The translations under genes and the position numbers were made by a program. A stretch of 29,229 bases of DNA, from positions 1 through 29,229 of the IMG/VR virus record IMGVR_UViG_3300036591_000033, one strand, 5' to 3'. The notes below the pieces were generated by a model. The model searched no databases. It was not told the DNA's origin and worked only from the letters and a program-made list of their open reading frames with translations. The DNA comes from a virus. Positions 7,472 through 24,473 of this stretch are shown here, in pieces. How positions within the stretch are numbered: the stretch's first letter is position 1; each line of letters begins with the position of its first letter.

Positions 7472-9401
7472 TGCTGAGAACCAAGTCCCACGCGGCCCGG
7501 GCATAAAAGCCCCGGTCCAGCAACGCCCAATCAAAATGATGCAGATCATTGCACATCATAACCATGTGGTCCTTCAGGATCGCCTGGGGCCGGTCGTGCA
7601 TTGGCAGCTTGCGCAGGGGAGCCATGATCTTCCACAACTGCGCGCCGCTCTGCGCCGTGACGTAGTAGCGGCCGGTCCGCTGCTGTGCGACGCCGCCGGA
7701 ATGCACCTTGCGCTTGAAGGGTCGTCCCTTGGCGTCTGGTGGCGTCCGCTGGCAGTCATAGTCGGACAGCACGCCGCCCAGCATCACCCGGTCGCCGCGC
7801 TGGATTTTGAGCGTGTGCATGAACGCATAAGCATCGGTGCAGGCCTCCACGGTCTCGGCCACCGGCACGCCGCGGACGAGATACGCTTCAGCCGCCATGG
7901 CCACGATCTTGCACGACTGGTTTTTGTGCCAGCCGTCGCCATATCCAAGACCGTGCTGATATTCAAATGCGCCCTTGCATTTCACAGAACCGCGCGCATC
8001 AATACACAAATACGAATTTACGTCCCGCTGGTGAAAGCTGGCGTAATCGTCCGATTCCAGTTCCAGCCCGGTCAGCTTTTCCCAGTCAGCCGACACCGCG
8101 TCGCACTCTGCCACCCTGTCACGGTCAACGATATACTCCACCCCGTCAGTGTTGACCTGTATCAATTCGAGCGATGGTATAGCCGCCAGCCGTTCGGCCA
8201 GCATGCAAAGCAATAATTGACCATTGATTGTGATTGTCATGGTGTATTGCGGATCATAGAACGGGCTGAACGTGCTGTTGCTGTTGCCATATGTCGCGTT
8301 CAGCGCCAGCTTCAGCGCTTTATTGCGCGGATCGCTCTTGGGCAGGCTGATCCGTTGGTCATAAACTTGCTTGTAAATATCGCAGAACACGTCGCTCAGA
8401 TGCGCGGGATAGACCCGGTTAGCGATGGTGAGGTTGGGATAATAGCTGCGCACGTCCCGACCCTGCACCACGCGATCGGCCGTGCTGCGCCAGGTGGTGC
8501 CGTCCTGAGCGCCGTGAATGCCACCGGTGCCGAACACGAACGTCAGGCCGTGGCAGGTGGCCGTCAGGTCGTCAAACGCCCCCTTGGTTTTAGTGATGGT
8601 CTTGGCGCGCAGATAGGCCAGCACGGTGTTAAACTCGGGCGTCTGGAATTGCACATACGGAAAAATGCAATCGGCCAGCGGGATGCGCGCGCGGGGCGTT
8701 TGCCGCCACGATCCTGACTTGCCGCATATTCCGGGCTGTGCCGCGTTCAGGCGCGAGATGAAAACTTTCGAGCCGATGCTGCTGTCGCTGGCGTTGGTCA
8801 GGTCCGCGTCCAGTGCGGCCGACATCTCGTCTCGAAACGCCAGCGCGGCCGCGGACTGCCGGTAGAATTGCAGCGTGGCGGCCACGTCGTGCCGGTTGTA
8901 TCCAAGCAACTGGGGGATCTGTTCGGGCGTCAGGACCGTGCCGGGCGGGAATGGCAGGTCCGCGACGTGCGCAAGCTGAAGGGCAATTTCGATCTGTTTC
9001 AGGCTGGTCAGCCGCGCTTGATTGTCAAAGTGGTGTATTTTGAACAGATCGACTTGCGGCACGATCATGTCAGACGCCCAGACGGTATTGCGGAACCGAT
9101 CGTTCCAAGGCGTTTCGATGATGCCCATAGATACTTGATATGCGTCGGCGGCGGTAAAGGAGTCATGGCGCAAAAGGGCGTGCAGTAGCGGGTAATCATA
9201 GCCGATATTATTATAACCGACCATTCGATTGCCGGAATACTGACCGAGCGCATGAATGAAATTGAGCAACTGGCGGGACTGGTCCACCCGATCGGATACC
9301 TCAAATATCCACTCGGTGCCGCTGGCAGCGTGAACGATCACAGCGCTGAACACGTTCGGGTAGCATTCCAAATCGTAGGCAAAATCGTTCCACTGTGTCA
9401 C
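7461..9401 (-). CDS. Family B DNA polymerase with 3'-5' exonuclease
   Basis: About 646 residues from GTG 9401, which makes a GTGA overlap with the upstream gene; ATG 9419 or 9431 are alternatives, and the open frame to 9785 is a shadow of other genes. Exonuclease motifs: Exo I FAYDLECYPN (Asp10, Glu12), Exo II VGYNNIGYDYPLL, Exo III YNRHDVAAT. Polymerase motifs: A GRDVRSYYPNL, B KLALNATYGNSNS, C VNTDGVEY (one of the two usual Asp residues replaced by Asn before TD, as in some family members). It copies the phage genome with proofreading. No terminal-protein region is obvious, so protein priming is not implied. Confidence 0.9.
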   Translation of the reverse strand: MTQWNDFAYDLECYPNVFSAVIVHAASGTEWIFEVSDRVDQSRQLLNFIHALGQYSGNRMVGYNNIGYDYPLLHALLRHDSFTAADAYQVSMGIIETPWNDRFRNTVWASDMIVPQVDLFKIHHFDNQARLTSLKQIEIALQLAHVADLPFPPGTVLTPEQIPQLLGYNRHDVAATLQFYRQSAAALAFRDEMSAALDADLTNASDSSIGSKVFISRLNAAQPGICGKSGSWRQTPRARIPLADCIFPYVQFQTPEFNTVLAYLRAKTITKTKGAFDDLTATCHGLTFVFGTGGIHGAQDGTTWRSTADRVVQGRDVRSYYPNLTIANRVYPAHLSDVFCDIYKQVYDQRISLPKSDPRNKALKLALNATYGNSNSTFSPFYDPQYTMTITINGQLLLCMLAERLAAIPSLELIQVNTDGVEYIVDRDRVAECDAVSADWEKLTGLELESDDYASFHQRDVNSYLCIDARGSVKCKGAFEYQHGLGYGDGWHKNQSCKIVAMAAEAYLVRGVPVAETVEACTDAYAFMHTLKIQRGDRVMLGGVLSDYDCQRTPPDAKGRPFKRKVHSGGVAQQRTGRYYVTAQSGAQLWKIMAPLRKLPMHDRPQAILKDHMVMMCNDLHHFDWALLDRGFYARAAWDLVLSTGG

Positions 9402-9616
9402 AGCAACACCGCGTCGCATGATTTGGTGCATGCGTTCTGCTCGGCCAATGTGGCGCACGTGCATGTGTCGTCCCGCGCGATCAGTGTGCAGTCCGCGGCG
9501 AGGCGCCCGTAACCTGACCCGAAAGGCGTCACATAGGAGCCGTAGACCACGGCCAGCGTCCATTCCTCGCCTGTCGGGTTGTGGCGCACTCGGTCGCCTG
9601 GTTGGAATGCGGTCAT
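9398..9616 (-). CDS. Small conserved phage protein (SH3-like)
   Basis: 72 residues. The opening FQPGDRVRHNPTGEEWTLAVVYG is the motif of a widespread family of small phage proteins, a KOW/SH3-like barrel with unknown function. A Cys-rich tail (TCTCATLAEQNACTKSC) could bind zinc. It starts after GGGGAG and ends in a GTGA overlap with the polymerase gene, suggesting translational coupling. Confidence 0.7.
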   Translation of the reverse strand: MTAFQPGDRVRHNPTGEEWTLAVVYGSYVTPFGSGYGRLAADCTLIARDDTCTCATLAEQNACTKSCDAVLL

Positions 9617-9643
9617 AGCATGGCTCCCCTGTTGATGCGTGAA

Positions 9644-9666
9644 GGGCGGGCCGTAACAGCCCGCCC
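9644..9666 (-). terminator. GGGCGGGC hairpin, copy 1
   Basis: Perfect 8-bp stem GGGCGGGC / GCCCGCCC with a 7-nt loop, between the ssDNA-binding gene and the next leftward gene. The same stem occurs at 12320 and 28396. No long T-run follows, so attenuation or mRNA processing is as likely as termination. Confidence 0.5.
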
Positions 9667-9675
9667 CGTGTCTGA

Positions 9676-10542
9676 TCAGGCGCCGGGCATGCCGCCACCC
9701 GCAGGGGGTGCCATATACCCGCCGTAGTTAGAAGGGGATGCAGTCGCCCCACCTGGTGAACTGGGCGGTGGCTGCGTCGTCCCATGTCCGTTTCCCAAGG
9801 GCATGCCGGACGGGGCCGGTGCGGGGCCGGGCATTCCGGACGGGGCCGGTGCGGGGCCGGGCATCCCAGACGGGGCCGGTGCGGGCTGAGGCGCGCCGCC
9901 CGGGGCCTGTGGCGTCTTGGTCATGCCTGCGGGCATGTAGGCGCCCGGACCGGCGCCAAGCTGCTGTTCCAGCGTCGGGCCGCCGACGATCTCAGGACCG
10001 TAGCCGACCAGACAGATCGTCTGAGGGTTCAGATAGACGCCCGCCGTATGGTCTTGATTCCCGTTGGCCGAGGTCGAGAACGGGACGGTGACGTAATAGC
10101 CGCGCTTGATCTCGGACGGGTCGCAGTAGGTCGGGACGGCGCCGTGGTATTTCGCCGACGCGATCGGCAGCGTGGTCGAGAATTTTGCGATCCAGCACCC
10201 TGCCCCGTGCTTCCACCGCAATTCTTGCTGGCCGGTCGTCGGGTTGGCGCGCATTTCATCGCCATCAACCACTTTCCACGAGAACGCCGTGGCGGCCAGT
10301 CCCGCGTTGATCTGAGCCATGACGTTCGGGGCGTTGGCGTATCCGGCCTGAGCGGCCTTGAAAAGCAATCCGAGCATTTCGTTCATGCCGGGAGCGTTCT
10401 TTTCGATCGCCACGGCAAACCAGTATGACTGCTTTTCCTCGGGGATCGGGCGGTTGTTCTGGTCGGTGGTCTGCTTGGTCCACGGATCGCCTGAAATGAG
10501 GCGTCCGACCGGGGAATTTCCGTATTCTGTGTGGCGTGACAT
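9676..10542 (-). CDS. Single-stranded DNA-binding protein (DUF2815-like)
   Basis: 288 residues. The first 180 look like the DUF2815-type phage ssDNA-binding fold (EKQSYWFAVAIEKN..., FSWKVVDGD, GCWIAKFSTTLPIAS, GYYVTVPFSTSANG, PGVYLNPQ-like AGVYLNPQTICLVGYGPEI). The rest is a Gly/Pro/Ala-rich tail with three copies of PAPAPSGMPG (9801-9890), a disordered linker of the kind used by SSBs for partner binding and multivalent contacts. It would coat ssDNA during replication or recombination. The start overlaps the GapR-like stop (TAATG). Confidence 0.75.
   Translation of the reverse strand: MSRHTEYGNSPVGRLISGDPWTKQTTDQNNRPIPEEKQSYWFAVAIEKNAPGMNEMLGLLFKAAQAGYANAPNVMAQINAGLAATAFSWKVVDGDEMRANPTTGQQELRWKHGAGCWIAKFSTTLPIASAKYHGAVPTYCDPSEIKRGYYVTVPFSTSANGNQDHTAGVYLNPQTICLVGYGPEIVGGPTLEQQLGAGPGAYMPAGMTKTPQAPGGAPQPAPAPSGMPGPAPAPSGMPGPAPAPSGMPLGNGHGTTQPPPSSPGGATASPSNYGGYMAPPAGGGMPGA
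9801..9890 (-). repeat. Three 30-bp tandem repeats coding PAPAPSGMPG
   Basis: Three consecutive 30-bp units, nearly identical in DNA, inside the C-terminal tail of the ssDNA-binding protein. Copy number could vary between related phages. Confidence 0.85.
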
Positions 10543-10829
10543 TAGTGGTCTCCGTCATTGGTTGGGTGGCGGGGTCCGGTAGGCATTTTGATCGCTTCCC
10601 GGTATAGATCGAGAATGGCGGCCTCTTCGGCCACATCCTCAGCGGCGCGTCTGCGTTCGCTGATCAGCCTGCGCAGTATCTTGGCGTCATAGCCTCGCCC
10701 TTTGGCTTCGGCATAAACCTCCTTGACCAGATCGGCGACTTCGGACTTTTCTTTCTCAAGTCGCTCGATGCGCTCAATAACTTGCAGGATTTCCTCCCCT
10801 GCAATCGAATTGTGTCCGGCTCCGCTCAT
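10542..10829 (-). CDS. GapR-like/DUF2312 DNA-binding protein
   Basis: 95 residues. The pattern VIERIERLEKEKSEVADLVK then EVYAEAKGRGYDAKILRRLI and a C-terminal ILDLYREAI helix is characteristic of DUF2312, the family of the alphaproteobacterial nucleoid protein GapR, which clamps over-twisted DNA ahead of moving forks. A phage copy next to an SSB and polymerase suggests it aids fork progression. Family membership points to an alphaproteobacterial host. Confidence 0.85.
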   Translation of the reverse strand: MSGAGHNSIAGEEILQVIERIERLEKEKSEVADLVKEVYAEAKGRGYDAKILRRLISERRRAAEDVAEEAAILDLYREAIKMPTGPRHPTNDGDH

Positions 10830-11899
10830 CCTGTTTTCCCCCTGTTGAGTTGCCGGGCCAAGGTGTCCTGATCCAGCGGGGCCAGCTTGTGCCCCGTGCT
10901 TGGCCTTTCGGTAATAACGGATAATTGCACGGCGGTCAACCCTGCAAGTTTGAGGTCGGCAATTCCCATCGGCACGGTCTTGGTCGCGTCCTTCCCGGTC
11001 AACGCCTTGATGATCGCGGGGGGGAATTTCACGCGGGTGTTGCCCTGCCGGGGCATCAATCCCCAGCCAGGCAGACGCTCGCCCCGCTTGGCCCGCGCCT
11101 CGGCCTCGACCTCGGTGGCCTTGGCCGCTGCTGTGATGATCTCCAAGGCGTCGCGGTAGAAGTGCAGCGCTTGGGACATCTCTTCAGGCGACCGATCGCG
11201 GTGGCCGGTCATCTCGGCAATGGCCAGCGCGGTGGCGGTGGTCTGTTGCAGCGCCACGCAGCCTGACGCCCCGTCGCAATAGAGGCAATGCGCGCCAGGC
11301 GTGGCGATCGGGTCGGGCTTGTAGCACTCGTCAGCCCGTTGGACGGTCCACTCGGCTTTGTCGCGGATCTGGTCAGGCGTCCAATCGATCCACCGGCGCG
11401 GACCGTCTTGGTGGAAGCCTCGCGGCTGATAGATTTCCGTGCGGACCGTGTGGATTCGCTTGGGCGGCGCTCTCAAGATCGCCGCGGCATAGATGATCAG
11501 TTGCGGGCTGTCTGGCGCCACGAGTCGAAACCCGTATTTCAGATCGCGCACGGTCAGCACGCCGTCTGCCAGCGTCACGCAGTCGGGCGTTCCGGCGATA
11601 TGACGCCTCAACTCGACCAGTGTTTCGACCCACATTTCGCCGCCATCCGCGCGGCAAATCTCGGCATATTCCCGCATGTGGTCGATCATGGTTGCGTCGG
11701 CTTCCCAGCCGTTTTCGTGCGTCATGCCGATTTCCGCGGGCCGATCGGTCAGCATCAATTCCGCAATCCACGCCGCGCAGGTGCCCTCCCGCGCAGCATC
11801 GCTGGACGGCTGCGGCCCGGCGCGGCTTGCAAACAACGGCGCCGCGGAGCATTTCGTCCAGCGATGCGCAGCGCTGGGCCGGGTCTGGATGTCGGTCAT
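10826..11899 (-). CDS. DUF2800-type PD-(D/E)XK nuclease
   Basis: 357 residues. The N-terminus (PSAAHRWTKCSAAP...SSDAAREGTCAAW) is the opening of DUF2800 proteins, RecB/Cas4-like nucleases found with phage ssDNA-binding and polymerase genes. Catalytic candidates are GTPDCV then VRDLKYG (D...D-x-K). A CLYCDGASGC cluster (about residue 205) may be part of an Fe-S or Zn site as in Cas4-like exonucleases. It may process DNA ends for recombination-dependent replication. It starts and ends at ATGA overlaps. Confidence 0.82.
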   Translation of the reverse strand: MTDIQTRPSAAHRWTKCSAAPLFASRAGPQPSSDAAREGTCAAWIAELMLTDRPAEIGMTHENGWEADATMIDHMREYAEICRADGGEMWVETLVELRRHIAGTPDCVTLADGVLTVRDLKYGFRLVAPDSPQLIIYAAAILRAPPKRIHTVRTEIYQPRGFHQDGPRRWIDWTPDQIRDKAEWTVQRADECYKPDPIATPGAHCLYCDGASGCVALQQTTATALAIAEMTGHRDRSPEEMSQALHFYRDALEIITAAAKATEVEAEARAKRGERLPGWGLMPRQGNTRVKFPPAIIKALTGKDATKTVPMGIADLKLAGLTAVQLSVITERPSTGHKLAPLDQDTLARQLNRGKTG

Positions 11900-12294
11900 G
11901 GCTTGCCATCCAGTGCTGCATTCACCGCCGCCGGAACCTCATTCAAAAGGCTTATTGCATTGGCGTCCAATGCCGACTTCCCCCAGTCGAATTTCGGCAA
12001 GGCTTCATCAATCAGGCGTTTGGTCAGTTGCAGCGCTGCCCGCAGCCGCGCAATCTCTGCCGTTTGTTCGGTTGCGATCCGATGGAGGTCGGGAGCGGCG
12101 GCTATCAGGGCGGCATTGTGCATTGAGTTGACCATCATACCCCCGGTGTCCCCCGGATACTGAGGCGGGTTGCCCATCAAGCAAATCTCAGTGGGTGGTC
12201 TGCTCATTTGAGATACACAAATCCCGTCGCGTCCCCACGGCCCCGGAGTAAAGCCCTTCAGGCTGGCGATCATTTCGGCGTCGCTATCGGTCAT
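11896..12294 (-). CDS. Ea22-like protein
   Basis: 132 residues from ATG 12294, which has AGGGGA upstream at good spacing; ATG 12312 and the longer frame lack this. The signature is TPGPW near the start, then NAALIAAAPDLHRI, typical of the Ead/Ea22 family of small early phage proteins, followed by a coiled helix (AEIARLRAALQLTKRLIDEA). Function in the family is unclear. It overlaps the next gene by ATGA. Confidence 0.65.
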   Translation of the reverse strand: MTDSDAEMIASLKGFTPGPWGRDGICVSQMSRPPTEICLMGNPPQYPGDTGGMMVNSMHNAALIAAAPDLHRIATEQTAEIARLRAALQLTKRLIDEALPKFDWGKSALDANAISLLNEVPAAVNAALDGKP

Positions 12295-12319
12295 GTCTTT
12301 ATCCCCTGTCATGTGTGAA

Positions 12320-12342
12320 GGGCGGGCCGCAATAGCCCGCCC
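12320..12342 (-). terminator. GGGCGGGC hairpin, copy 2
   Basis: Perfect 8-bp stem GGGCGGGC / GCCCGCCC with 7-nt loop, between two leftward genes (after the gene at 12351). It matches the hairpins at 9644 and 28396 in stem sequence. It may be an attenuator or an RNA processing signal. Confidence 0.5.
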
Positions 12343-12350
12343 GGCGCGTC

Positions 12351-12992
12351 TCAGTCGGCGCTCATGGCGTGCCGGACGCATTGATCATGGTCGTCGCCCT
12401 CATCCACCGCGTCCATGTAGGCGCTCAGGCGGGCGATGTTGGTCTGGTTCGTGTCGAGATCGTCGTAGCTGATACCAAGCGCCGCATAGATCGTTTCGTA
12501 GTCGGCGGGCAGACCGTCCGGGTCTTGCATCTTGGCGACAAACCGTTCCGCCATCACCTTATACTCGATCGGCTCGGGCGGCGTGGCAGGGGCCGGTGCG
12601 GCCGGGATCGGCGTGGGCATCACGCAGACGGGGGTTGTCTCAGGCTGAGCACCCTTCGCTGCGGCAACCGCGGCGTCATACGCCTCTTTCTGCCCGCGCC
12701 GCGCCCGATACGATCCGTCAGCGTTGAAGCTGGGCGGGCTGCTGTGGATGGAGTCATCATGCGCCATGCCGTGACAGTCCAAGGCGCCAGCCGGTGCAGG
12801 CGCAGGGGCGGGTTCGGGCAGGGGGGCGATCGTGACGGTGCTGGGGGCGGGGGCGGGAGGCGTGTCGGGTGTCCATACCCCGGTCGCTGAGTCAAGCTGC
12901 GCTGTGCCAGACTGGATAGGGGCGGTGGTTCCGAGCAGGCGGGCGATCGTGGCGCATTCCTGGGCGTTGTGGGGGTCAAAGGTGATTTGCAT
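12351..12992 (-). CDS. First gene of the leftward early operon, hypothetical
   Basis: 213 residues with a Pro/Ala-rich middle. It contains DCHGMAHDDSIHSSPPSFNA followed by DGSYRARRG, a motif I know from a family of phage proteins of unknown function, and an acidic C-terminus (DAVDEGDDHDQC). It is read from the promoter at 13024-13052, with GGAG before ATG 12992. Confidence 0.75.
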   Translation of the reverse strand: MQITFDPHNAQECATIARLLGTTAPIQSGTAQLDSATGVWTPDTPPAPAPSTVTIAPLPEPAPAPAPAGALDCHGMAHDDSIHSSPPSFNADGSYRARRGQKEAYDAAVAAAKGAQPETTPVCVMPTPIPAAPAPATPPEPIEYKVMAERFVAKMQDPDGLPADYETIYAALGISYDDLDTNQTNIARLSAYMDAVDEGDDHDQCVRHAMSAD

Positions 12993-13023
12993 TTTCGTCT
13001 CCGGTGCGGGTTGATATTATCTG

Positions 13024-13052
13024 TTAATAGCCCGCGCCGGGCCGGTTGTAAA
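13024..13052 (-). promoter_or_regulatory. Early leftward promoter
   Basis: Minus strand TTTACA (13052-13047), 17-nt spacer, TATTAA (13029-13024). Transcription would begin near 13017 and read the whole leftward replication block. One arm of the 13028-13038 / 13083-13093 inverted repeat covers its spacer and -10. Confidence 0.6.
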
Positions 13053-13093
13053 TACCTATTATTAGCCTTGACGCGGGGGCGTGGCGCGGGCTA
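13028..13093. promoter_or_regulatory. Paired operator-like inverted repeat between divergent promoters
   Basis: Perfect 11-bp arms TAGCCCGCGCC (13028-13038) and GGCGCGGGCTA (13083-13093), 44 nt apart. Each arm overlaps one of two divergent promoters. The 12-bp palindrome GCTAAATTTAGC (13090-13101) adjoins the right arm. It looks like a regulator-binding switch, possibly looping DNA, for the two early transcripts. Confidence 0.5.
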
Positions 13094-13097
13094 AATT
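13068..13097 (+). promoter_or_regulatory. Rightward promoter, probably leaderless
   Basis: TTGACG (13068-13073), 18-nt spacer, TAAATT (13092-13097). The expected transcription start is at or near 13104, the ATG of the next gene, with no ribosome site between, so the first gene may be read from a leaderless mRNA. Confidence 0.5.
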
Positions 13098-13103
13098 TAG
13101 CGC

Positions 13104-13340
13104 ATGAACCATATGCCCCCAGCACCCCGCAAATTTTACGTGACCGCCATTGATGGGCCGCGCGTCCATTTTCTGGCGGGACCGTATGACACCCTCCTTT
13201 TGGCTGAGGCGCAGGTTGATACCGTGCGCGCATTGGCCTGTGATTTTGAGCAAAATGCGAGCGCCGGTCGGGCGCATTTTATGGCCTATGGCGTGACCCG
13301 CACGACCGGTGGCCATAAGACGGCGCTGGGCATAAAATGA
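13104..13340 (+). CDS. Small hypothetical protein, first of rightward operon
   Basis: 78 residues (MNHMPPAPRKFYVTAIDGPRVHF...), soluble, with no recognised motif. No ribosome site precedes ATG 13104, which lies about where the mRNA should start. It overlaps the helicase gene by ATGA, so may couple helicase translation. Confidence 0.65.
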   Translation: MNHMPPAPRKFYVTAIDGPRVHFLAGPYDTLLLAEAQVDTVRALACDFEQNASAGRAHFMAYGVTRTTGGHKTALGIK

Positions 13341-14965
13341 CCCTCACGCTTCGGCCGTATCAAACGCAACTGATCAACGACATCCGGGCCAAGTGGGCGG
13401 GCGGGGCGCGCAACGTGCTGGCGGTGATGCCGACCGGCGCCGGGAAAACTGTCGCATTCAGCAAATTGAACGCCGATGGCGAGCGGTCCTGCACGATCGT
13501 GCATCGGCAGGAATTGGTCGGCCAGATCAGCAAAACCTATGCGACGGTAGGAACCTACCACAACATCATCGCGCCTCAGTCGGTGATCAATTTTTGCATT
13601 CGGCTGCACATCGCGGCCACGGGGCGCAATTTTTACGACCCTCGCGCCGCCGTGAGCGTGGCAGGTGTCGATACGTTGATCCGAAGGTTCAAGCCGGGCG
13701 ACGCATGGTGCAACTCGATCCGGCGCTGGACGCTGGACGAAGCGCACCACGGGCGACAGGACAACAAGTGGGGAATTGCCGCCGCGTTGTTCCCAAACGC
13801 CAAGGGCCTAGGTGTCACGGCGACGGCGTGCAGGGGCGATGACAAATCGCTGCATGCTGATCAAGGCGGCCTGTTCCACGATCTGGTCCAAGGCCCTGGG
13901 ATGCGCGAACTGATCGACGCGGGCAGCCTTGCCGATTATCGCGTGTTCGCCCCGAAGGTCGGCATTGACGAAGCGCTTTTGCAGATAGGCAAGACCGGCG
14001 ATTTCACGGCAAATTCTGCCAAGGCCGCGCAAAAAGCCGAGATGATCGGCGACGTGGTGGAAAGCTATCTGGCCCACATTCCCGGCAAGCAAGCGATCGT
14101 CTTTGCGTCAGGGGTGCAGGACGCGAAAGACATCGCGGAGCAATTCAGGGCACGCGGCGTGCCAGCCACGGCGCTGGACGGCACGAACAATGACGGGCAT
14201 CGGATGGATCAAGTTGCGCGGTTTGAGACAGGCGAAACGCGGATCTTGACGAACGTCGATCTGTTCGGCGAGGGCTTCGACGTGCCAGCGTGCGAGGCGG
14301 TCATAATGGCCCGACCAACGGCCAGCTTCGGGCTGTTCGTGCAACAGTTTGGCCGCGCGCTGAGACCGTTTGAGGGCAAGACGCATGGGGTTATCATTGA
14401 CCATGTGGGCAACGTGGTGCGCATGGCTGCAAAGCATGGCCTGCCCGATACGCCACGCACATGGACGCTCTGGCAAGACGAGACGCGCAAGACCAATGGC
14501 AACCCTGATGCGGTGCCGGTCAGGGTGTGCCCTGAATGTCTGCTGACGTATGAGGCGGTTGTGTTCAAATGCCCCTATTGCGGCGCGGCGCATGTCCCTG
14601 CCGGGCGGTCATCGCCTGATCAGGTGGACGGGGTGCTGTCCGAGATGTCGATAGAGTTGCTGGCAACATTGCGCGCCGGAGCGGACAAGATCCAAGCGGC
14701 TGAGCCTGCCATCCCCTACGGCGCGTCGGCGATCGTGGCCGCGGGTATCCGGGCGCGACACCGCCGGAACCAAGCGGCTCAGGCGTCGCTATCCGATGCG
14801 ATGCAACGATGGGGCGGGATGCGCCTGGCAGCGGGTGACTCTGATGCAGCCATGCAGGCCCGGTTCCTTTTCCGGTTCGGCGTGGACGTGATGAGCGCAC
14901 AAGGGCTGTCCGAGCGGGCGGCGCTGGAATTGAGGGATGCAATCATGGAGGCGACACGCCAATGA
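13337..14965 (+). CDS. DEAH-box superfamily 2 helicase
   Basis: 542 residues. Motif I MPTGAGKTVAF (about residue 30), motif II TLDEAHHG (DEAH), motif III-like TATAC, and motif VI VQQFGRALRPF are all present, as in type III-restriction/RecG-like SF2 helicases of phages. A zinc ribbon CPECLLTYEAVVFKCPYCG (two Cys-x2-Cys pairs) follows the helicase core, then an Arg-rich helical tail. It would unwind or translocate on DNA or RNA during replication. It overlaps its neighbours by ATGA. Confidence 0.9.
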   Translation: MTLTLRPYQTQLINDIRAKWAGGARNVLAVMPTGAGKTVAFSKLNADGERSCTIVHRQELVGQISKTYATVGTYHNIIAPQSVINFCIRLHIAATGRNFYDPRAAVSVAGVDTLIRRFKPGDAWCNSIRRWTLDEAHHGRQDNKWGIAAALFPNAKGLGVTATACRGDDKSLHADQGGLFHDLVQGPGMRELIDAGSLADYRVFAPKVGIDEALLQIGKTGDFTANSAKAAQKAEMIGDVVESYLAHIPGKQAIVFASGVQDAKDIAEQFRARGVPATALDGTNNDGHRMDQVARFETGETRILTNVDLFGEGFDVPACEAVIMARPTASFGLFVQQFGRALRPFEGKTHGVIIDHVGNVVRMAAKHGLPDTPRTWTLWQDETRKTNGNPDAVPVRVCPECLLTYEAVVFKCPYCGAAHVPAGRSSPDQVDGVLSEMSIELLATLRAGADKIQAAEPAIPYGASAIVAAGIRARHRRNQAAQASLSDAMQRWGGMRLAAGDSDAAMQARFLFRFGVDVMSAQGLSERAALELRDAIMEATRQ

Positions 14966-15255
14966 AAAGGCTCTTATCCCCCGTAGCGGATGCGGTTCAG
15001 GCCTACGTCGTCCAGCATCCCGGCGCCACAGTGCGGGACGTGGCGGGTGCGCTCTTTCCGAGCCACGCGAAAAGTGGCGTTCCGGCCGCTCAAGGTTCGC
15101 TGTCCTGGCTGATGGCACGCAGGCGGATCGTCCGGGAGTCGTTCGGGCCGAACATCGCCGCGCGCTACACGGCCCGAACGGATCGGCCAGTTTGCGCTTC
15201 AATCAACGTAAACGGCGTCAGTCTGGCGCGCGCACCATGGGAAAAAATAGCATGA
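14962..15255 (+). CDS. Small winged-helix-like protein
   Basis: 97 residues. AVQAYVVQHPGATVRDVAGA then SLSWLMARRRIVRESFGPN looks like a winged helix (recognition helix then basic wing). It could be a DNA-binding accessory of the helicase next door, with which it overlaps by 4 nt. Family not recognised. Confidence 0.6.
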   Translation: MKRLLSPVADAVQAYVVQHPGATVRDVAGALFPSHAKSGVPAAQGSLSWLMARRRIVRESFGPNIAARYTARTDRPVCASINVNGVSLARAPWEKIA

Positions 15256-15698
15256 CCATCGACAAGCAATTCCGGGCCAGCTTCGTTCGGCGCTGGCACA
15301 CCAATCCCGATCTGGCGCAGACCGTTGACACGCTCGCGGGACACGGCGGGCGGGTGGCGCGCATCATCCTGAAGCTATGGCCCGATGCGTCCCGCGCCCT
15401 GCTGCACTGGGCGTTGGTGCATGATGATGGGGAATCCGTGGTCGGTGACGTGCCATCCACGACAAAGGGCGCAACGGTGATCCACGAGCAAGAGCGTGCC
15501 GCACTGGACCGTATCTGGCCGGGGTTGCCTGACCTGACGCCGGACGAATATGACCGGCTGAGATTTGCCGATCGGCTGGACGCCTATCTGTGGGCGCAGC
15601 ATCACGCGCCTCACACGCTGACCGGTGACGGCTGGCCTGAGGGCCGCTGCTGGATCTTTGCACAGGCTGAGGCGCTGGGCGTGTCGGTGTCGGTATGA
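15252..15698 (+). CDS. HD-domain phosphohydrolase (YfbR-like)
   Basis: 148 residues from ATG 15252 (ATGA overlap); a longer frame from 14937 is a shadow. Motifs: LAGHGGRVARI (first His), ALLHWALVHDDGESVVGDVPS (the H...HD pair and GD.P of the HD superfamily), and a third Asp in RLRFADRLDAYLW. The family includes 5'-nucleotidases of nucleotide salvage, so it may adjust the dNTP pool during infection. The exact substrate is unknown. Confidence 0.75.
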   Translation: MTIDKQFRASFVRRWHTNPDLAQTVDTLAGHGGRVARIILKLWPDASRALLHWALVHDDGESVVGDVPSTTKGATVIHEQERAALDRIWPGLPDLTPDEYDRLRFADRLDAYLWAQHHAPHTLTGDGWPEGRCWIFAQAEALGVSVSV

Positions 15699-16291
15699 GG
15701 GTCTTGATCGCCTGCGAGTTTAGCGGCACGGTGCGCCGCGCCTTCACCGCTCGCGGTCACGATGCATGGTCCTGCGATCTGCTACCCGCCGAGGACGGAT
15801 CGAACCGGCATATCGTCGGCGACGCGCGCACGCTGCTGAATGATGGATGGGACCTGCTCATGGTCGCGCACCCGCCTTGCACGCGCCTCTGCAACAGCGG
15901 CGTGCGGTGGCTCACCAAGGCCCCGCCAGGTCGCACGCTCGCAGATATGTGGGCAGAGCTTGAGACGGGCGCCGCGCTGTTCTCCGCGTTTTGGAATGCC
16001 GCGATCCCACGCATAGCTGTCGAGAATCCAGTGATGCACCGGCACGCCAAGGCGCTGATAGAGGGCTACGAGCCGCCCGCGCAGAGCGTCCAGCCGTGGC
16101 AATTCGGGCATGGTGAGGTTAAGCGGACTTGCCTGTGGCTGCGCGGCCTGCCGGTATTGACGCCGACCGATGTGGTCGAGGGCCGTGAGGCTCGCGTGCA
16201 TCGGATGCCACCAGGCCCGAACCGCGGCAAGGAGCGCAGCCGGTTTTTTTCGGGAATTGCCGACGCGATGGCGGATCAATGGGGTTCTTGA
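15695..16291 (+). CDS. C5-cytosine methyltransferase-like protein
   Basis: 198 residues. Motif I-like VLIACEFSGTVRRAFTARGH with DAWSCDLLPA, motif IV-like AHPPCTRLCNSG (PPC with catalytic Cys candidate) and VENP (motif VI) are present, but the target-recognition region is very short. Many phages encode such compact proteins and activity is unproven in most. It might modify phage or host DNA. It overlaps the HD gene by ATGA. Confidence 0.65.
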   Translation: MRVLIACEFSGTVRRAFTARGHDAWSCDLLPAEDGSNRHIVGDARTLLNDGWDLLMVAHPPCTRLCNSGVRWLTKAPPGRTLADMWAELETGAALFSAFWNAAIPRIAVENPVMHRHAKALIEGYEPPAQSVQPWQFGHGEVKRTCLWLRGLPVLTPTDVVEGREARVHRMPPGPNRGKERSRFFSGIADAMADQWGS

Positions 16292-16316
16292 CACGACAGT
16301 CAATAAATGGCAATAA
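16288..16316 (+). promoter_or_regulatory. Rightward promoter with shared TGGCAATAAT -10
   Basis: TTGACA (16288-16293), 17-nt spacer, CAATAA (16311-16316) preceded by TGG. The -10 context TGGCAATAAT is identical to the leftward promoters at 4826 and 7359. It precedes the gene starting at 16338 and overlaps the end of the methyltransferase-like gene. Confidence 0.6.
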
Positions 16317-16337
16317 TGCCCCAAAGGAGTCTGAACA

Positions 16338-16553
16338 ATGGCTGAACGAGTGAGAATGTCGCGGGATGACCGGCGCGGGGTGATAATCCGGGCGGCCGTC
16401 GCCTTGACGCGGGCGTCGTCAGGATGCGTCAATTCCTGGACGCGCAATGATGTGGCCCGGAAATGCTCACCCCCTACCAGCATCGACACTGTGAAAAATT
16501 ATTTCACAATGCCGGAGTTGCGCGAGGCGGTTCGGGTGGTGCTGAGGTGTTGA
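16338..16553 (+). CDS. Small HTH-like regulator
   Basis: 71 residues (MAERVRMSRDDRRGVIIRAAV...). A helix-turn-helix is likely in TRNDVARKCSPPTSIDTVKNYF (recognition helix TVKNYF), followed by a short C-terminal helix. The start follows AAAGGAG. Probably an early transcriptional regulator. Confidence 0.65.
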   Translation: MAERVRMSRDDRRGVIIRAAVALTRASSGCVNSWTRNDVARKCSPPTSIDTVKNYFTMPELREAVRVVLRC

Positions 16554-16583
16554 CTTGGCGAGCAACGCTTACCATAGTGGTAA
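16550..16583 (+). promoter_or_regulatory. Promoter with overlapping operator for the Cro-like gene
   Basis: TTGACT (16550-16555), 17-nt spacer, CATAGT (16573-16578). The inverted repeat TTACCA-tag-TGGTAA (16569-16583) lies directly over the -10, an arrangement typical of a self-repressing regulator. Confidence 0.55.
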
Positions 16584-16610
16584 ACCTAAAGCAACCGCGC
16601 AGGGGACACC

Positions 16611-16796
16611 ATGGAAAAGCTGAACGACTATCTCAAGGGCCGGACAGCCCGCCATCTGGCGCGCACGGTGGGTGTTTCAGAAGCGCACATGTCTCGCCTG
16701 AGGCACGGTGAACAAACCCCATCGCTTGCGTTGGCGCGGCGCATAAAGGAAGCGACCGCTGGCGCTGTGGACTACGATGCGTGGGGTTTGGCATGA
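16611..16796 (+). CDS. Cro/CI-family HTH regulator
   Basis: 61 residues. LARTVGVSEAHMSRLRHGEQ then TPSLALARRIKEAT is a clear lambda-repressor-like HTH (turn VSEAHMSRLR). It carries no dimerisation tail, so it is Cro-like in size. The gene has AGGGGA before ATG and its own promoter with an operator palindrome upstream. It overlaps the primase-helicase start (ATGA) and so may control it. Confidence 0.8.
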   Translation: MEKLNDYLKGRTARHLARTVGVSEAHMSRLRHGEQTPSLALARRIKEATAGAVDYDAWGLA

Positions 16797-19432
16797 CCCC
16801 GCTCTGCACAGGCTTCGGGCAATATGACACGAACGGCAAGACAGGAGCGACCTACACAGGCGTGACCGAAGCCGACATCATGGCCATGGTGCTGAATCCG
16901 CCAAGCGTTCACAAAGACGATGCGCAATGGTTCATTCCGTCTGACTATCTGGCGCATGATGCCCGCGAACATGAGGCGCAGCGCCAGCACGGTCAGTTTT
17001 GGGCCATCCCGCTCGACCTAGACGACAACAGCCCGCCCTTAGCGGTTGTGGGCAATGCACTGAGGCGCGTAATGGGCAACACGGCCCATGTGATTTTTTC
17101 CAGCCGATCGGCCAAGCCTGCCAACCTCAAGTGGCGCGCGCTGTGCTGGCTGGAAACCCCGATCGCTGGTGCGGATTACGCCGATACGGTTGAGGCGTTC
17201 AACGATCTGATCGCAGGGCAGCTTGTGCCGGACAGGGCGTTGCAGCGCACAGGCCAGCTTGTCTTTTTGCCGAACCGGGGCGAGCATTACGAGTGGGATA
17301 TGCAGGTTGGCCCCCGCACAAGCCTCACACCTAACCACCCCGTCATTGTGAGGCGCGACCAGACCAGGCGCAGCCGTGCCGATGCTCAGGCCAAGGCGGC
17401 GGCATGGAAGGCGCGCAAGGCGGCTCTGACGCCCTCTGACGCAACGAACGTGGTCGATGCCTTCAACGCGGCGCATGTCGTGGCTGATCTGCTGGAACGC
17501 TACGGATACCAACATGCCCGGTCTGGTGACAACTGGAAAAGCCCGATGCAATCCGGGGGCAGCTATGCCACGCGAGATTATGGAGACCACTGGATCAGCC
17601 TGTCAGGCTCGGACGGCGCCGCGGGGATCGGCACAGACACCAAGACAGGGCAGCGATTCGGCGATGCGTTCGACCTGTTCGTGCATTTCGAACATGCTGG
17701 CGACTTCAACGTCGCGGTGCGCACGTATGGGGCCCTTCACAGGCTGATGAACATGCCTGGCCCGTCGCATGTCCCTGCCGGGATGCTTGCCGCCCCTGGT
17801 ATGCCCAGCGCGCCGCGGGCGCCCAGTGTAATCGATCTGATCTGCGCGCGGATCAAGGACAACCCCCTGACAGCCGTAGAGTTGCTGGCCGATGAAGTGG
17901 CCCGGCTGTCGCCTGCCGACCGGGAAAAGGTGTTTGAGGAATGCAAACTCTATCCCGGTCTGGGCAAAGCCAAGATGCAGGCGGCGGTGAAGCGGGCTGT
18001 CACGGTTTTTCTGGCAGCCAAGGGTGCGCTCGCGTTGCAAACGCCAGAATATGCCGAGTTGAACCATTACTTCATTGTCCGAAACGAGGATGGGCAGGCG
18101 GTGGCGGTGGATGGCAGGGGCGGAATGCAGCCCCAGGCCCGCAAGCAATTCAGAGACGCCATGGCGCAGCTTCCGCCGATCATGATCGAGGACAAGGCCA
18201 CCGGCAATGCCCGCGCCAAGCTGGCGGCGGATTATTGGTGGGAACATCCCGACACGCTCAGTTATCACGCGACAGGATACGACCCGCTGACAGGTGTTGA
18301 ATTTTACGATGAGAAAGCCCGAAAGATCCGCAACGTCTATGAACCGGGACATGCGGCGCCCGCCCCGGCCGTCGGTCTGGAATCGATCGCACCGTTCATG
18401 CACATCATCCGAGTCAATTTCCCGGACGCATCAGATCAGCACACGCTCTTGCAAATTCTGGGAAATTTGGTGCAGCGTCCCGGCGTGATGCTGCGCTGGG
18501 CGCCGGTGATGCAGGGAACGCAGGGTTGCGGCAAAGGGACGATCTTTCAGGCCGTCGCGTATTGCCATGGGCGCAAGAACGTCGCGCACCCGTCGCCTGA
18601 CGTCATCGCCACCGATTTCAATGGCTACATGGACCGCAAGACGCTGGTTCTGGTCAACGAGATCGGCGACCACAGCAAACGCGAATTGTCGGTGTTGTCG
18701 GAAAAAATCAAACCATGGATCACCGATGACGACGCTCACATTCACGGTAAGGGAAAAGGATCTTACGACACGCAGAACTTCACGAACTGGATATTCACGA
18801 CCAACCACCTGCATTGCATGTTGGCCACGCCTGGCGAGCGACGGTATGCGCACTTCATTTCAGCCCTGCAGACCGAGGACGACGCCGCTCGGGCGTTCTA
18901 TGCCGAATGGTGGACCGGCGGTGGGGGCGACTGGTGGGGGTCATACTATGACTGGTGGGGCGCAGGCGGGGCCGAGGCGGTGCGGGGCTATCTGGGCCAC
19001 ATGGCGCTTGATGTGGCGCCGTCCCGCGCCCCTGTGACGTCCAGCACGGCTGAGGCGATGGACGCTGGCGATGGGGCAGCCATAGGGTTGATCAGGGCGG
19101 CGGTGACGGAAGGGGCCGCAGGTTTCAGGGGCGGTTGGGTTTCGATCAACGCCGTGCGCGATCTGCTGGAGTCTGAAGACCTGAAAGTTCCTGGGGGGCC
19201 GTATCTGGCGCGCCAGCTTGAGCAGATAGGCTACAGGCACACGATCCGCTGCAACACGTCCCCTCTTGAAGCGGATCGATTTCGGAAGGCATCGACAAAG
19301 ACTCGGCTATACCACACTGCAGACCTGACGGGACAAGGGCCAGCAAATGTCATTGCGCTCTATGATGCAGCGCAACGATTGGGAGACGGCGGCCCATTGC
19401 GGTCAACAGTAATTAAAATGCCCGGTCTATAA
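16793..19432 (+). CDS. Primase-helicase (AEP-like primase plus SF3/D5-like helicase)
   Basis: 879 residues from ATG 16793 (ATGA overlap). The N-terminal 250 residues resemble an archaeo-eukaryotic-type primase: FWAIPLDLDDNSPPL (D-x-D catalytic pair), HVIFSSRSAKP and LKWRALCWLET. A middle region GDNWKSPMQSGGSYATR resembles primase or zinc-binding relics. The C-terminal part is an SF3/DUF5906-type helicase: Walker A MQGTQGCGKGTIFQ, Walker B TLVLVNEIGD and sensor FTTNH. It would prime and unwind the phage origin. It is followed by a terminator and the repeat-rich gap at 19473. Confidence 0.82.
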   Translation: MTPLCTGFGQYDTNGKTGATYTGVTEADIMAMVLNPPSVHKDDAQWFIPSDYLAHDAREHEAQRQHGQFWAIPLDLDDNSPPLAVVGNALRRVMGNTAHVIFSSRSAKPANLKWRALCWLETPIAGADYADTVEAFNDLIAGQLVPDRALQRTGQLVFLPNRGEHYEWDMQVGPRTSLTPNHPVIVRRDQTRRSRADAQAKAAAWKARKAALTPSDATNVVDAFNAAHVVADLLERYGYQHARSGDNWKSPMQSGGSYATRDYGDHWISLSGSDGAAGIGTDTKTGQRFGDAFDLFVHFEHAGDFNVAVRTYGALHRLMNMPGPSHVPAGMLAAPGMPSAPRAPSVIDLICARIKDNPLTAVELLADEVARLSPADREKVFEECKLYPGLGKAKMQAAVKRAVTVFLAAKGALALQTPEYAELNHYFIVRNEDGQAVAVDGRGGMQPQARKQFRDAMAQLPPIMIEDKATGNARAKLAADYWWEHPDTLSYHATGYDPLTGVEFYDEKARKIRNVYEPGHAAPAPAVGLESIAPFMHIIRVNFPDASDQHTLLQILGNLVQRPGVMLRWAPVMQGTQGCGKGTIFQAVAYCHGRKNVAHPSPDVIATDFNGYMDRKTLVLVNEIGDHSKRELSVLSEKIKPWITDDDAHIHGKGKGSYDTQNFTNWIFTTNHLHCMLATPGERRYAHFISALQTEDDAARAFYAEWWTGGGGDWWGSYYDWWGAGGAEAVRGYLGHMALDVAPSRAPVTSSTAEAMDAGDGAAIGLIRAAVTEGAAGFRGGWVSINAVRDLLESEDLKVPGGPYLARQLEQIGYRHTIRCNTSPLEADRFRKASTKTRLYHTADLTGQGPANVIALYDAAQRLGDGGPLRSTVIKMPGL

Positions 19433-21655: not shown

Positions 21656-22069
21656 ATGATGGAAATGCCGAAAGACCCCCGCGGACGTAAACCCCACGCG
21701 CCAAGCGATGCGCAGCGCAAGCTGGTGCAGCTTCACGCGACGGTTGGGACGACGCAGGAAATGATCGCCCGCGTGCTGAAAATTGATGCGAAGACGTTGC
21801 GGCTGCATTACCGCGACGAACTGGATCTTGCGATGGCGCTGGCCAATGCCACAATCGGTGGCAAGCTGTTCAACAAAGCCAAAGGTGGCGACACCGCTTC
21901 CATGATTTTTTGGATGAAGACGCGGGCACGCTGGCGCGAAACGGCTGACGTGAACCTGATCAGTGAGGACGGCAGCATGTCGCCCAAGCCCGCGCTGGAC
22001 ATGTCCCGCCTGTCGCCCGAAGCCCTTGCAGAAATTGTGGCGCTTGGCGATGCACCTGACTCCGCTTGA
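21656..22069 (+). CDS. terS: Terminase small subunit
   Basis: 137 residues from ATG 21656 (ATG 21665 also possible). The DNA-binding half has GRKPHAPSDAQRKLVQLHAT then GTTQEMIARVLKIDAKTLRLH, the HTH of TerS proteins (KTLRxHYRDEL), followed by GGDTASMIFWMKTRARWRE, a conserved end of the family. It would recognise the packaging site. It overlaps terL by 20 nt. The upstream frame from 21560 is a shadow. Confidence 0.85.
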   Translation: MMEMPKDPRGRKPHAPSDAQRKLVQLHATVGTTQEMIARVLKIDAKTLRLHYRDELDLAMALANATIGGKLFNKAKGGDTASMIFWMKTRARWRETADVNLISEDGSMSPKPALDMSRLSPEALAEIVALGDAPDSA

Positions 22070-24473
22070 CATAATTGCCGCTGAGAAAGAACTGTGCCGT
22101 CGATCGCTGGCATACTTTATAAAGCGCGCGTGGCGTCACGTTGTTCCCGACAAACTGCAATGGAACTGGCATATCGAAGCCATTGCAGAGCATCTAGAAG
22201 CGGTACACCGTGGTGAAATAACAAGGCTTCTTATCAATATCCCGCCAGGGACTTCCAAAAGCACAATCGTAGGCGTGATGTATCCTGCGTGGCTCTGGGG
22301 GCCGGGAGGGCAGCCGTGGCACAGGTTCATCGGCGCAGCACACGAACAAGGCCTTGCGGTGCGCGATAACCGCATCATGAGGAACCTGATCACGTCAGAG
22401 TGGTATCAATCCTTATGGCCTATCGCCATGACGGGAGATCAAAACGAAAAGTTGTATTTTGAGAACGAAAGAAGGGGCTTCAGGCAGGCCTGCGCTGTTG
22501 CGTCTATGACAGGTCGGAGAGGTCACTGTCTTTCAGGCGACACTTTAATCGCTACAACGTCCGGTGAAAAAACCATATATGACATTGCAATCTCCGCTGA
22601 ATCCTGTAATGTCTACAGTTATGACATACATTCAAAAAGACTGGTGGAAAGACCCGTGCAAGCCGTGGCGCGGGGTTCGTCGAGACATATCAATCGAGTT
22701 CACTTTACCTCTGGGCGGGTGGTCACATGTTCTAGAGACCATAAATTCTACACCTCTAGAGGATATGTCGAAGCGCGCTTTCTTTCCAAAGGTGACACTT
22801 GCGTGCAGTTATTGCGACAAAGTGTTTGTAAAGACTGTTGCGGATGCAAAAAAATCCCATGCAAAAACCGGGGGTCCGATATACTGCAGTCTGTCATGCT
22901 CAACAACGGCAATGAATATTTGGATAGGGAACGCGGGTCCATTCTGCACGGTATGCGGCAAAAAAATCAAGAAGGTGGACGGCCGGAACTGTTCGGCAGA
23001 GTGCAAGTCGGAGTCACACAGGTTGGGGGGGTTGAAAGCTCGAGTCGAGAGAAAAACAATTTCTTGCGAGATATGCCAAAAATCAATGATTGTCCCTATA
23101 ACATCCAAGCGAAGATTTTGCTCTGTGGTATGCTCATCGACACACCACAGGTCAGTCATTTCTGGGGAGAACAACCCTGTGTGGCAGGGCGGGGTGGACG
23201 CCCTGAGACTGCGCCATGCTGGTTCCCAACGGGCATGGACCAGAATACGGACGAAAATTGTGGATCGAGACCTTGGGAGGTGCGTGGTCTGTGCATCTCA
23301 GAAAAAGCTTCACGTTCACCACATCGACGTGAACAACACCAACAACACCCCATCCAATCTAGTCACACTTTGTGCGAAATGCCATTTTGCGTGGCACGGC
23401 GCGGAAAGGTCGAAGCCTCAGAAGATATTGTGGCCATGGTTGAAAACGTATGCGGTGAAAGCGACACATACGACCTTCAGGTGAATGGAACTAACTGCTT
23501 TTTTGCAAACGGTATTCTTGTTCATAACAGCATAGTGTGGGACGATCCTTTGTCACCCGAGAAGGCAATGTCTGATCTCCATCGGGAAACCGCAATTCGC
23601 ATTTTGTCTGAAACCGTGCCGACGCGGTTAAATGACCCTGATAAATCTGCAATTATTGTTGTTATGCAGCGACTTCACGAGGGAGACCCGAGCGGGCATA
23701 TCCTGACAAAAGACTTGGGGTATGACCATCTTTGCATCCCGATGGAGTTTGAACTTGACCGCAGGTCGCCCACGTCAATCGGTTGGATTGACCCTAGAAC
23801 GATCGAGGGCGAACTTTTAGACGCGGTGCGGTTCCCGGCGCATGTGATTGAGCGTGACAAAAAAGCTATGGGGTCATACGCGTGGGCTGGTCAAATGCAG
23901 CAGCGGCCCGCACCGCGCGGCGGCGGTATGTTCAAGCGGTCAGATTTTCGCGTGGTGCGGGCCGAGCCTGCGGGCTACACGTGGGTGCGCGGATGGGATT
24001 TGGCTGCAACGAACGACCCATCAGCGGCCCGGACGGCTGGCGTCAAGGTCGGCATCGGCCCTGACCGGCGTATCTGCATCGCCCATGTTGTGAAAGACCA
24101 GGTGAACGCGGCCGGGGTTGAGCGGTTGCTTGCCAGCACGGCAGCGGCGGATGGGCGCGCGGTCCGCGGATCGATCCCTCAGGACCCCGGCAGCGCTGGC
24201 AAGTCCTGGGCATTGCACCTTCTCAAATCGGCTCTGATGGGGTATAGCTACACGTCAAGCGTCGAGACGGGCGACAAAGAAACCCGCGCAATGCCCCTCG
24301 CGGCACAGGTCGAGGCCGGGAACGTGGACATTGTGGCAGGCGATTGGAATGGTGATTTTTTGGACGAGGCCGCGACGTTCCCCATGGGTAAATTCAAAGA
24401 TCAGATCGACGCCGCAACGAGGGCGTTTGACATGATCGCGGGCGTAAATAATTCGTGGGCTGGAACAATATGA
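22050..24473 (+). CDS. terL: Terminase large subunit with intein
   Basis: 807 residues as encoded, from ATG 22050; 473 after removal of a 334-residue intein. ATPase: Walker A LLINIPPGTSKSTIVG (about residues 67-82), then TGRRGH, interrupted by the intein, resuming SIVWDDPLSP, where IVWDDP is Walker B. Nuclease: VRGWDLAATND and later acidic residues (QDPGSAGK, DQIDAATRAFD) give the RNase H-like active site. It cuts and pumps DNA into the head. Without splicing the Walker B strand would be displaced, so packaging should depend on splicing. The intein also contains an out-of-frame HNH gene at 22765-23484. Overlaps terS by 20 nt and the portal by ATGA. Confidence 0.93.
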   Translation: MHLTPLDIIAAEKELCRRSLAYFIKRAWRHVVPDKLQWNWHIEAIAEHLEAVHRGEITRLLINIPPGTSKSTIVGVMYPAWLWGPGGQPWHRFIGAAHEQGLAVRDNRIMRNLITSEWYQSLWPIAMTGDQNEKLYFENERRGFRQACAVASMTGRRGHCLSGDTLIATTSGEKTIYDIAISAESCNVYSYDIHSKRLVERPVQAVARGSSRHINRVHFTSGRVVTCSRDHKFYTSRGYVEARFLSKGDTCVQLLRQSVCKDCCGCKKIPCKNRGSDILQSVMLNNGNEYLDRERGSILHGMRQKNQEGGRPELFGRVQVGVTQVGGVESSSREKNNFLRDMPKINDCPYNIQAKILLCGMLIDTPQVSHFWGEQPCVAGRGGRPETAPCWFPTGMDQNTDENCGSRPWEVRGLCISEKASRSPHRREQHQQHPIQSSHTLCEMPFCVARRGKVEASEDIVAMVENVCGESDTYDLQVNGTNCFFANGILVHNSIVWDDPLSPEKAMSDLHRETAIRILSETVPTRLNDPDKSAIIVVMQRLHEGDPSGHILTKDLGYDHLCIPMEFELDRRSPTSIGWIDPRTIEGELLDAVRFPAHVIERDKKAMGSYAWAGQMQQRPAPRGGGMFKRSDFRVVRAEPAGYTWVRGWDLAATNDPSAARTAGVKVGIGPDRRICIAHVVKDQVNAAGVERLLASTAAADGRAVRGSIPQDPGSAGKSWALHLLKSALMGYSYTSSVETGDKETRAMPLAAQVEAGNVDIVAGDWNGDFLDEAATFPMGKFKDQIDAATRAFDMIAGVNNSWAGTI
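22527..23528 (+). mobile_element. Intein in TerL (334 residues) with both splicing halves
   Basis: Starts with Cys1 (TGT 22527; CLSGDTLIATTSG, block A). Block B is VVTCSRDHKFYTSRGYVEA (His72, with SRDH for the usual T-x-x-H). After KGDTCVQLL the frame loses intein likeness for about 200 codons. Block F/G is TYDLQVNGTNCFFANGILVH ending His-Asn (residues 333-334), followed by Ser (AGC 23529) of the C-extein. All splicing residues are present. No in-frame LAGLIDADG or HNH domain exists; the endonuclease is instead in the +1 frame (22765-23484). Confidence 0.93.
22765..23484 (+). CDS. HNH homing endonuclease nested out of frame inside the terL intein
   Basis: 239 residues in the +1 frame relative to terL, from ATG 22765 (AGAGGA lies only 1-2 nt before it, so initiation may be coupled or weak; an upstream GTG at 22564 keeps the frame but adds shadow sequence). 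Successive zinc-finger pairs: CSYC/YCSLSC (14-45), CTVC/NCSAEC (61-80), CEIC/FCSVVC (101-123); then SGENNPVWQGG (133-143), a motif common in homing HNH proteins; then the HNH core CVVC...HVHHIDVNN...SNLVTLCAKCH (Cys173/176, His185/186, Asn198, Cys203/206, His207). It looks complete and undecayed. It overlaps intein block B coding at its start and block F coding at its end. Would cut intein-less terL to promote homing. Confidence 0.85.
   Translation: MSKRAFFPKVTLACSYCDKVFVKTVADAKKSHAKTGGPIYCSLSCSTTAMNIWIGNAGPFCTVCGKKIKKVDGRNCSAECKSESHRLGGLKARVERKTISCEICQKSMIVPITSKRRFCSVVCSSTHHRSVISGENNPVWQGGVDALRLRHAGSQRAWTRIRTKIVDRDLGRCVVCASQKKLHVHHIDVNNTNNTPSNLVTLCAKCHFAWHGAERSKPQKILWPWLKTYAVKATHTTFR

Follow-up and report, generated by a model that had tools for sequence, protein, structure and literature searches.

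Out-of-frame nesting of a predicted zinc-finger HNH endonuclease gene in an intein of a viral terminase gene

We analyzed a 29,229-nucleotide stretch of viral DNA (IMG/VR record IMGVR_UViG_3300036591_000033, positions 1 to 29,229; hereafter the window), in which the terminase large subunit gene terL carries an intein. Comparative sequence analysis makes it very probable that this intein, situated at the Walker B region of TerL, is contiguous and splices in cis, and that its homing endonuclease is a zinc-finger HNH protein of its own, overprinted in the +1 frame, with the TerL frame being kept free of stop codons through the HNH gene. The architecture, fixed frame, stop avoidance, substitution phase, recent lateral transfer and precise empty sites are taken directly from sequences, from which we predict protein splicing, cleavage of DNA and the route by which the HNH protein is translated.

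The terL intein and its nested HNH gene

As a preliminary description of this DNA had reported, with correct coordinates, terL and its intein share one frame in which Cys1, His72 and the terminal His333-Asn334 followed by Ser at +1 are all present, and the third forward frame contains stops, for instance at 22829 (for feature coordinates, see Table 1). The intein is located immediately ahead of the Walker B motif (SIVWDDP). It matches Pfam Intein_splicing over residues 13-334 (E=5e-11) and, in a profile search, the Spl DnaX mini-intein (7cfv, E=4e-26). In the AlphaFold model of the TerL-frame intein, residues 1-97 and 295-334 together form a Hint domain at high confidence (pLDDT >90), for which Foldseek returned the Mtu RecA and Ssp DnaB mini-inteins, and residues 104-290 have pLDDT values almost all below 50. 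In two intein-less alleles, L002 and L003, the element is precisely missing between GGTCAC and AGC/ACA; the empty site of L002 reads GGTCAC|ACAATAGTGTGG.

The preliminary description had placed the HNH gene at 22765-23484 in the +1 frame. The nested gene and its end at 23484 hold, but the coding start is probably near 22621 rather than at 22765, because the +1 frame is open from 22564, constraint on the HNH frame sets in about 100-120 nt past Cys1 in the closest clade of the window (L173, L174 and L176), and the ATG at 22621 is common to the window, L174 and L176. The shorter form, starting from the ATG at 22765, has 239 amino acids and matches Pfam HNH (E=2e-4), while a profile search matched the HNH protein to the HNH modules of IscB (9k2z) and DotN. 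Both the HNH motif and the zinc ligands characteristic of an HNH homing endonuclease are found in the window. These residues are invariant or nearly so across homologues, including the first seven listed for the nuclease module in Table 1 (Cys221 through His255; 32-35 homologues), and all of them are intact in the window. In the TerL frame, the only invariant columns among 32 members are C1, H72 and N334. The model of the HNH-frame protein has a mean pLDDT of 78.5 and is confident from about residue 55, except for a short stretch at about 180-200.

Frame, stop codons and substitutions across the family

With the HNH protein as query, tblastn identified the TerL genes of Gordonia phage Clown and Synechococcus phage S-EIVl, both isolates, and the match offsets place the HNH gene in the +1 frame. 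We then scanned IMG/VR with an HNH profile followed by profiles for both splicing halves. Altogether, 58 loci were found in which both halves lie in one frame with an HNH gene between them, always in +1; these correspond to 26 non-redundant members at 80% HNH identity. All nested +1 HNH loci occupy the TerL Walker B region. They include Clown, S-EIVl and Streptomyces plasmids, and a scan of genome contigs added a single nested relative, a partial contig of a Bacteroidetes metagenome-assembled genome (L168). About a dozen further loci, together with mini-inteins devoid of HNH at the same site, came from an independent scan with motifs of the C-terminal half. A profile of the N-terminal half (IntN) was too variable for scanning. 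As judged from these loci, an out-of-frame HNH gene in an intein is a widespread class and not a single-locus oddity. Three TerL genes carry a second, different intein beside the one with the nested HNH (L093:2846-3649, L095 and L144), which in L095 and L144 is found in the Walker A region.

The preliminary description had proposed a search for the same nested frame in related terL inteins, and had named three findings that would speak against it: a sequencing or assembly error, an in-frame HNH homologue, and homologues with a closed TerL frame. The first is countered by recurrence of the arrangement across dozens of independent contigs as well as in the genomes of two isolates. As for the second, the endonuclease is in +1 in all members, and no in-frame HNH homologue of this TerL intein family was found among the 58 loci. 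The third applies to a single true split form, L122. An in-frame HNH intein altered by two compensating frameshifts, or an assembly artifact, is therefore an explanation to which we give almost no credence: in-frame HNH inteins are known elsewhere (the CL131 dCTP deaminase, PMC6293099), but none occurs among the 58 independent loci, isolates among them, and the substitution phase described below points to long-term constraint in two frames. This candidate was rejected on both grounds.

Synonymous codons were shuffled within each HNH gene to estimate how many host-frame stops to expect. None occur over the HNH gene in 25 non-redundant members, against about 233 expected, whereas the third-frame stop count matches expectation and free-standing HNH relatives contain 422 host-frame stops against 432 expected. 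For instance, the copy on contig L001 (L088; 98% identical) has no host-frame stops, against a mean of 9.4 under shuffling, and none of 2000 shuffles reached zero. Because the deficit is confined to the TerL frame of nested members, with the third frame and free-standing relatives at chance, openness of the TerL frame over the HNH gene is, on these counts, selected.

The same counts bear on a fractured gene, in which the two halves of a split intein would flank a free HNH gene, the TerL frame would be open by chance and TerL would be made by trans-splicing of two polypeptides. A true split form exists in L122 (2161-3279), the 26th non-redundant member, where the halves are in register yet closed by about 35 stops (35 observed, 36.4 expected) and the HNH gene has its own ATG preceded by TAAGG; furthermore, the C-terminal half in the window begins with MVENV, resembling a separately started half. 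Nevertheless, the host frame of the window is not interrupted between the halves, the absence of stops in 25 independent members strongly disfavors a split intein open by chance, and the in-frame mini-inteins and an in-frame deletion in L208 (see below) show cis reading in use. We regard the split form as very unlikely for the window.

Removal at the RNA level, with the HNH gene carried in an intron of group I or another kind, is exceedingly improbable. HNH genes are frequent in phage introns, which lends this idea general background, but there was no Rfam intron match, and with it no sign of a conserved ribozyme core, at E up to 5, the ends of the element have protein-splicing residues and a Hint fold, and host-frame stop avoidance would be pointless in an intron. 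The intron was rejected as a candidate for these reasons.

The change in both frames across homologues, which the preliminary description had suggested measuring, was tallied by host codon position in 25 disjoint pairs. By segment, substitutions at host positions 1/2/3 number 927/609/2579 (exteins), 309/205/407 (N half of the intein), 1458/715/620 (HNH segment) and 102/65/169 (C half). Since the first host position coincides with HNH position 3, constraint changes frame in the HNH segment. In 28 gap-free S-EIVl-like sequences, the phase transitions are sharp, at about 110 and 930 nt past Cys1, and both frames are slow in zones at both ends of the HNH segment. The 5' dual-coding zone has a lowered rate at both kinds of sites in the S-EIVl-like group as well as in the clade of the window. 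At mid-segment, HNH-silent changes that alter the TerL-frame residue are frequent; no constraint on the linker is thus visible apart from its freedom from stops. The host-frame linker translation of Clown, used as a tblastn query, matched Clown alone, leaving this linker without relatives. Taken together, stop avoidance and substitution phase support selection on both frames, in agreement with the earlier proposals of dual selection and of a linker that is a by-product peptide.

Mobility and translation of the nested genes

The intein appears to have moved independently of its host gene. The window and L001 inteins are about 98% identical, and the HNH genes differ at 6/288 third positions, compared with 150/443 (34%) in the exteins (P=4e-30). 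Near-identical inteins within such divergent TerL genes indicate recent homing and point to recent lateral transfer of the element between the lineages of the window and L001. Later stages are represented by homologues with a broken or deleted HNH (L092, L208, L183 and L196). L092 has a stop in the HNH frame while the TerL frame is still open. The C-extein sequences of L208 and L209 are identical and their splicing halves nearly so; in L208, however, an in-frame deletion has removed 510 nt of HNH, leaving a mini-intein with HNH remnants at both ends. L209 and L208 thus form a natural pair with and without the nested HNH. Across the compared loci, gain, spread, decay and loss are seen as stages of a homing cycle.

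These decayed copies lend some substance to the idea that the HNH gene of the window is an inactive relic, with only the intein frame still mattering. All conserved zinc and HNH residues are nevertheless intact in the window and the element moved recently between its lineage and L001, so that a relic is quite unlikely. The preliminary description had also supposed that a mini-intein was invaded by an HNH gene. This found no direct support: because the +1 frame is fixed across very divergent TerLs, any capture of HNH by the intein would be ancient, and L209/L208, the only direct before-and-after comparison, illustrates the opposite step.

The C-half motif scan also revealed inteins with a differently built HNH in +2 and, in helicases, EDxHD endonucleases in +1. 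Dedicated scans were seeded with out-of-frame members, and their proportions are uninformative on inteins at large. For the second HNH type, 78/80 loci are nested in +2 with an open host frame, and 45 non-redundant loci have 0 host stops against 62 expected. For EDxHD, nesting in +1 with an open host frame was seen in 63/80 loci, with 0 host stops against 300 expected in 45 non-redundant loci, and five further non-redundant loci are split with stops at chance level. No in-frame endonuclease was found in either dedicated scan (80 loci each). The annotated isolates phi673 (a Corynebacterium phage with EDxHD in a helicase, L413), MR14 and TJE1 have concordant frames, at offsets of 664, 589 and 1367 nt from the coding sequence start. 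DOD endonucleases in the same sample are in frame (L182, L241 and L251). Out-of-frame nesting is thus likely to be general and repeatedly evolved in phage inteins, comprising zinc-finger HNH in +1, second-type HNH in +2 and EDxHD in +1, each with a fixed frame and a stop-free host, while DOD/LAGLIDADG endonucleases are in frame; many large inteins with an anonymous middle would then be such elements, intermediates between split and contiguous inteins. The second HNH type, with HNH first and zinc fingers after, occurs in +2 in inteins of L190-L246 (selected) and L253-L332, many of them at the TerL nuclease motif HDD|C...NCDA. EDxHD/Vsr-like endonucleases are nested in +1 in inteins of phage helicases and other proteins in L216, L230, L245, L249, L250 and L333-L412, and some of these inteins are split (L400, L402, L409, L410 and L412).

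In the proposed mechanism, ribosomes on terL would read straight through to produce TerL-intein-TerL, the Hint halves (residues 1-97 and 295-334) would fold around the unstructured 190-residue linker, and splicing would restore TerL. The HNH protein would come from another round of translation in the +1 frame and would cleave terL alleles that have no intein at their Walker B site, with repair copying the whole element. Selection would keep the TerL frame stop-free through the HNH gene and preserve the HNH residues.

Internal initiation near 22621 is the most likely mode of HNH translation in the class of the window, though only probable, and it is well supported by start-site sequences in the two sister classes. 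In these, Shine-Dalgarno sequences precede endonuclease-frame start codons more often than expected (P=1.5e-7 and 5e-6), usually at an ATG located about 257-281 nt past Cys1. Alternatively, +1 ribosomal frameshifting might produce the HNH protein as a TerL-IntN-HNH fusion, with no need for a start codon of its own. Most members have an HNH frame that is open far upstream, frequently reaching back to 30 nt or less from Cys1, which together with the lack of Shine-Dalgarno enrichment in this class would suit frameshifting. On the other hand, stops interrupt the HNH frame within IntN a short way upstream of candidate ATGs in L096, L108, L122 and L174, and the sister classes are strongly enriched at their internal ATG; frameshifting is accordingly the less favored mode and rather unlikely.

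Several observations weigh against a cis-splicing intein with an active overprinted HNH. The evidence on the insertion site and on transfer is comparative throughout; the window and L001 differ by only 12 HNH changes, too few to show purifying selection for this copy alone; the HNH model has weak Foldseek matches, the best at E=0.014; and Shine-Dalgarno enrichment at HNH-frame starts is absent in the class of the window (P=0.53).

In the window, terL is flanked by a TerS-like gene upstream and a portal gene downstream, and replication genes assigned by PHROGs span 7461-19432.

Table 1. Features of the window
Feature	Position	Strand	Description
terL (terminase large subunit) with intein	22050..24473	+	single unbroken frame, 807 codons, ATG 22050; Pfam Terminase_6C and Intein_splicing
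Contiguous Hint intein	22527..23528	+	334 aa, Cys1 to His-Asn, +1 Ser
Intein N-terminal splicing half	22527..22817	+	residues 1-97; pLDDT >90; profile match to Spl DnaX mini-intein 7cfv
TerL-frame linker	22836..23396	+	intein residues 104-290; absence of stops the only visible constraint; pLDDT <50 nearly throughout
Intein C-terminal splicing half, blocks F and G	23409..23528	+	residues 295-334
Nested zinc-finger HNH endonuclease (predicted), +1 frame	22621..23484	+	probable extent 287 aa, start inferred
Zinc-binding Cys pairs 5' of HNH module, +1 frame	22804..23136	+	C62/C65, C89/C93, C149/C152, C167/C171
HNH nuclease module, +1 frame	23281..23397	+	Cys221, Cys224, His233-His234, Asn246, Cys251, His255, His259
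5' dual-coding zone	22621..22817	+	splicing half in TerL frame, HNH N-terminus in +1
3' dual-coding zone	23409..23484	+	intein block F in TerL frame, HNH C-terminus in +1
DNA polymerase	7461-9785	minus	PHROGs
Exonuclease	10826-11899	minus	PHROGs
Helicase	13337-14965		PHROGs
Primase-like gene	16781-19432		PHROGs

Relation to known mobile elements

Out-of-frame HNH genes without an intein have been described in ShiLan and similar methylase insertions (PMC11855218; also PMC12613952), of which ShiLan is the nearest published case that we found. Like the window, ShiLan has a shifted-frame HNH in an insertion with an open host frame, and a sporadic distribution that suggests homing. In contrast to the window, where a full splicing domain surrounds the HNH gene, the ShiLan insertion lacks Hint motifs and presumably remains part of the protein, and its HNH gene starts with GTG and occupies the third frame. 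By tblastn, the HNH proteins of Clown and of the methylase insertion in phage Mantra, a ShiLan carrier, are homologous. In two further loci (L156:1168-2838 and L166:1096-2790), an HNH gene lies out of frame near the C-terminus of an open reading frame resembling C5-methylases, with no Hint motifs and no host-frame stops (2.2 and 3.5 expected, respectively); these are ShiLan-like insertions in another methylase type.

Canonical large inteins share with the window a Hint domain, a homing endonuclease and insertion in an active-site motif. However, their endonuclease is in frame, either LAGLIDADG or HNH as in the CL131 intein cited above, whereas that of the window is out of frame and hence outside the spliced-out polypeptide. 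Mycobacteriophage TerL inteins splice when tested (PMC5050341).

Phage group I introns with homing genes likewise carry an endonuclease inside a self-removing element, but removal of the window element would take place at the protein level, and the host frame must therefore stay open. Fractured genes, in which split inteins reportedly have a free endonuclease gene between their halves (work ascribed to Dassa and colleagues, 2009), resemble the window in having a separate endonuclease gene between splicing halves, and EDxHD/Vsr-like endonucleases recur here. Unlike in fractured genes, the halves in the window form one continuous frame through the endonuclease gene; L122, as a split member of the same HNH family, provides a link between the two. 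On sequence grounds, the architecture is a bridge between ShiLan insertions, fractured genes and canonical mobile inteins. A search of the open-access literature found no intein with an out-of-frame endonuclease, the ShiLan-type insertions, which have no intein, being the only out-of-frame endonuclease insertions reported there; subscription papers and preprints were outside the scope of this search, and priority of the architecture is not certain.

The two functions of a mobile intein, splicing and homing, would here be divided between two proteins with overlapping coding sequences. If so, the endonuclease need not fold as an intein domain, its dose could be set independently, and loss of the enzyme would not be coupled to loss of splicing. 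These loci also offer long gene overlaps with sharp controls in the form of free-standing, split, deleted and decayed relatives, so that the upkeep of overprinted genes and the gain and loss of endonucleases by inteins become directly testable. Annotation restricted to a single frame would hide such endonucleases in many phage genomes.
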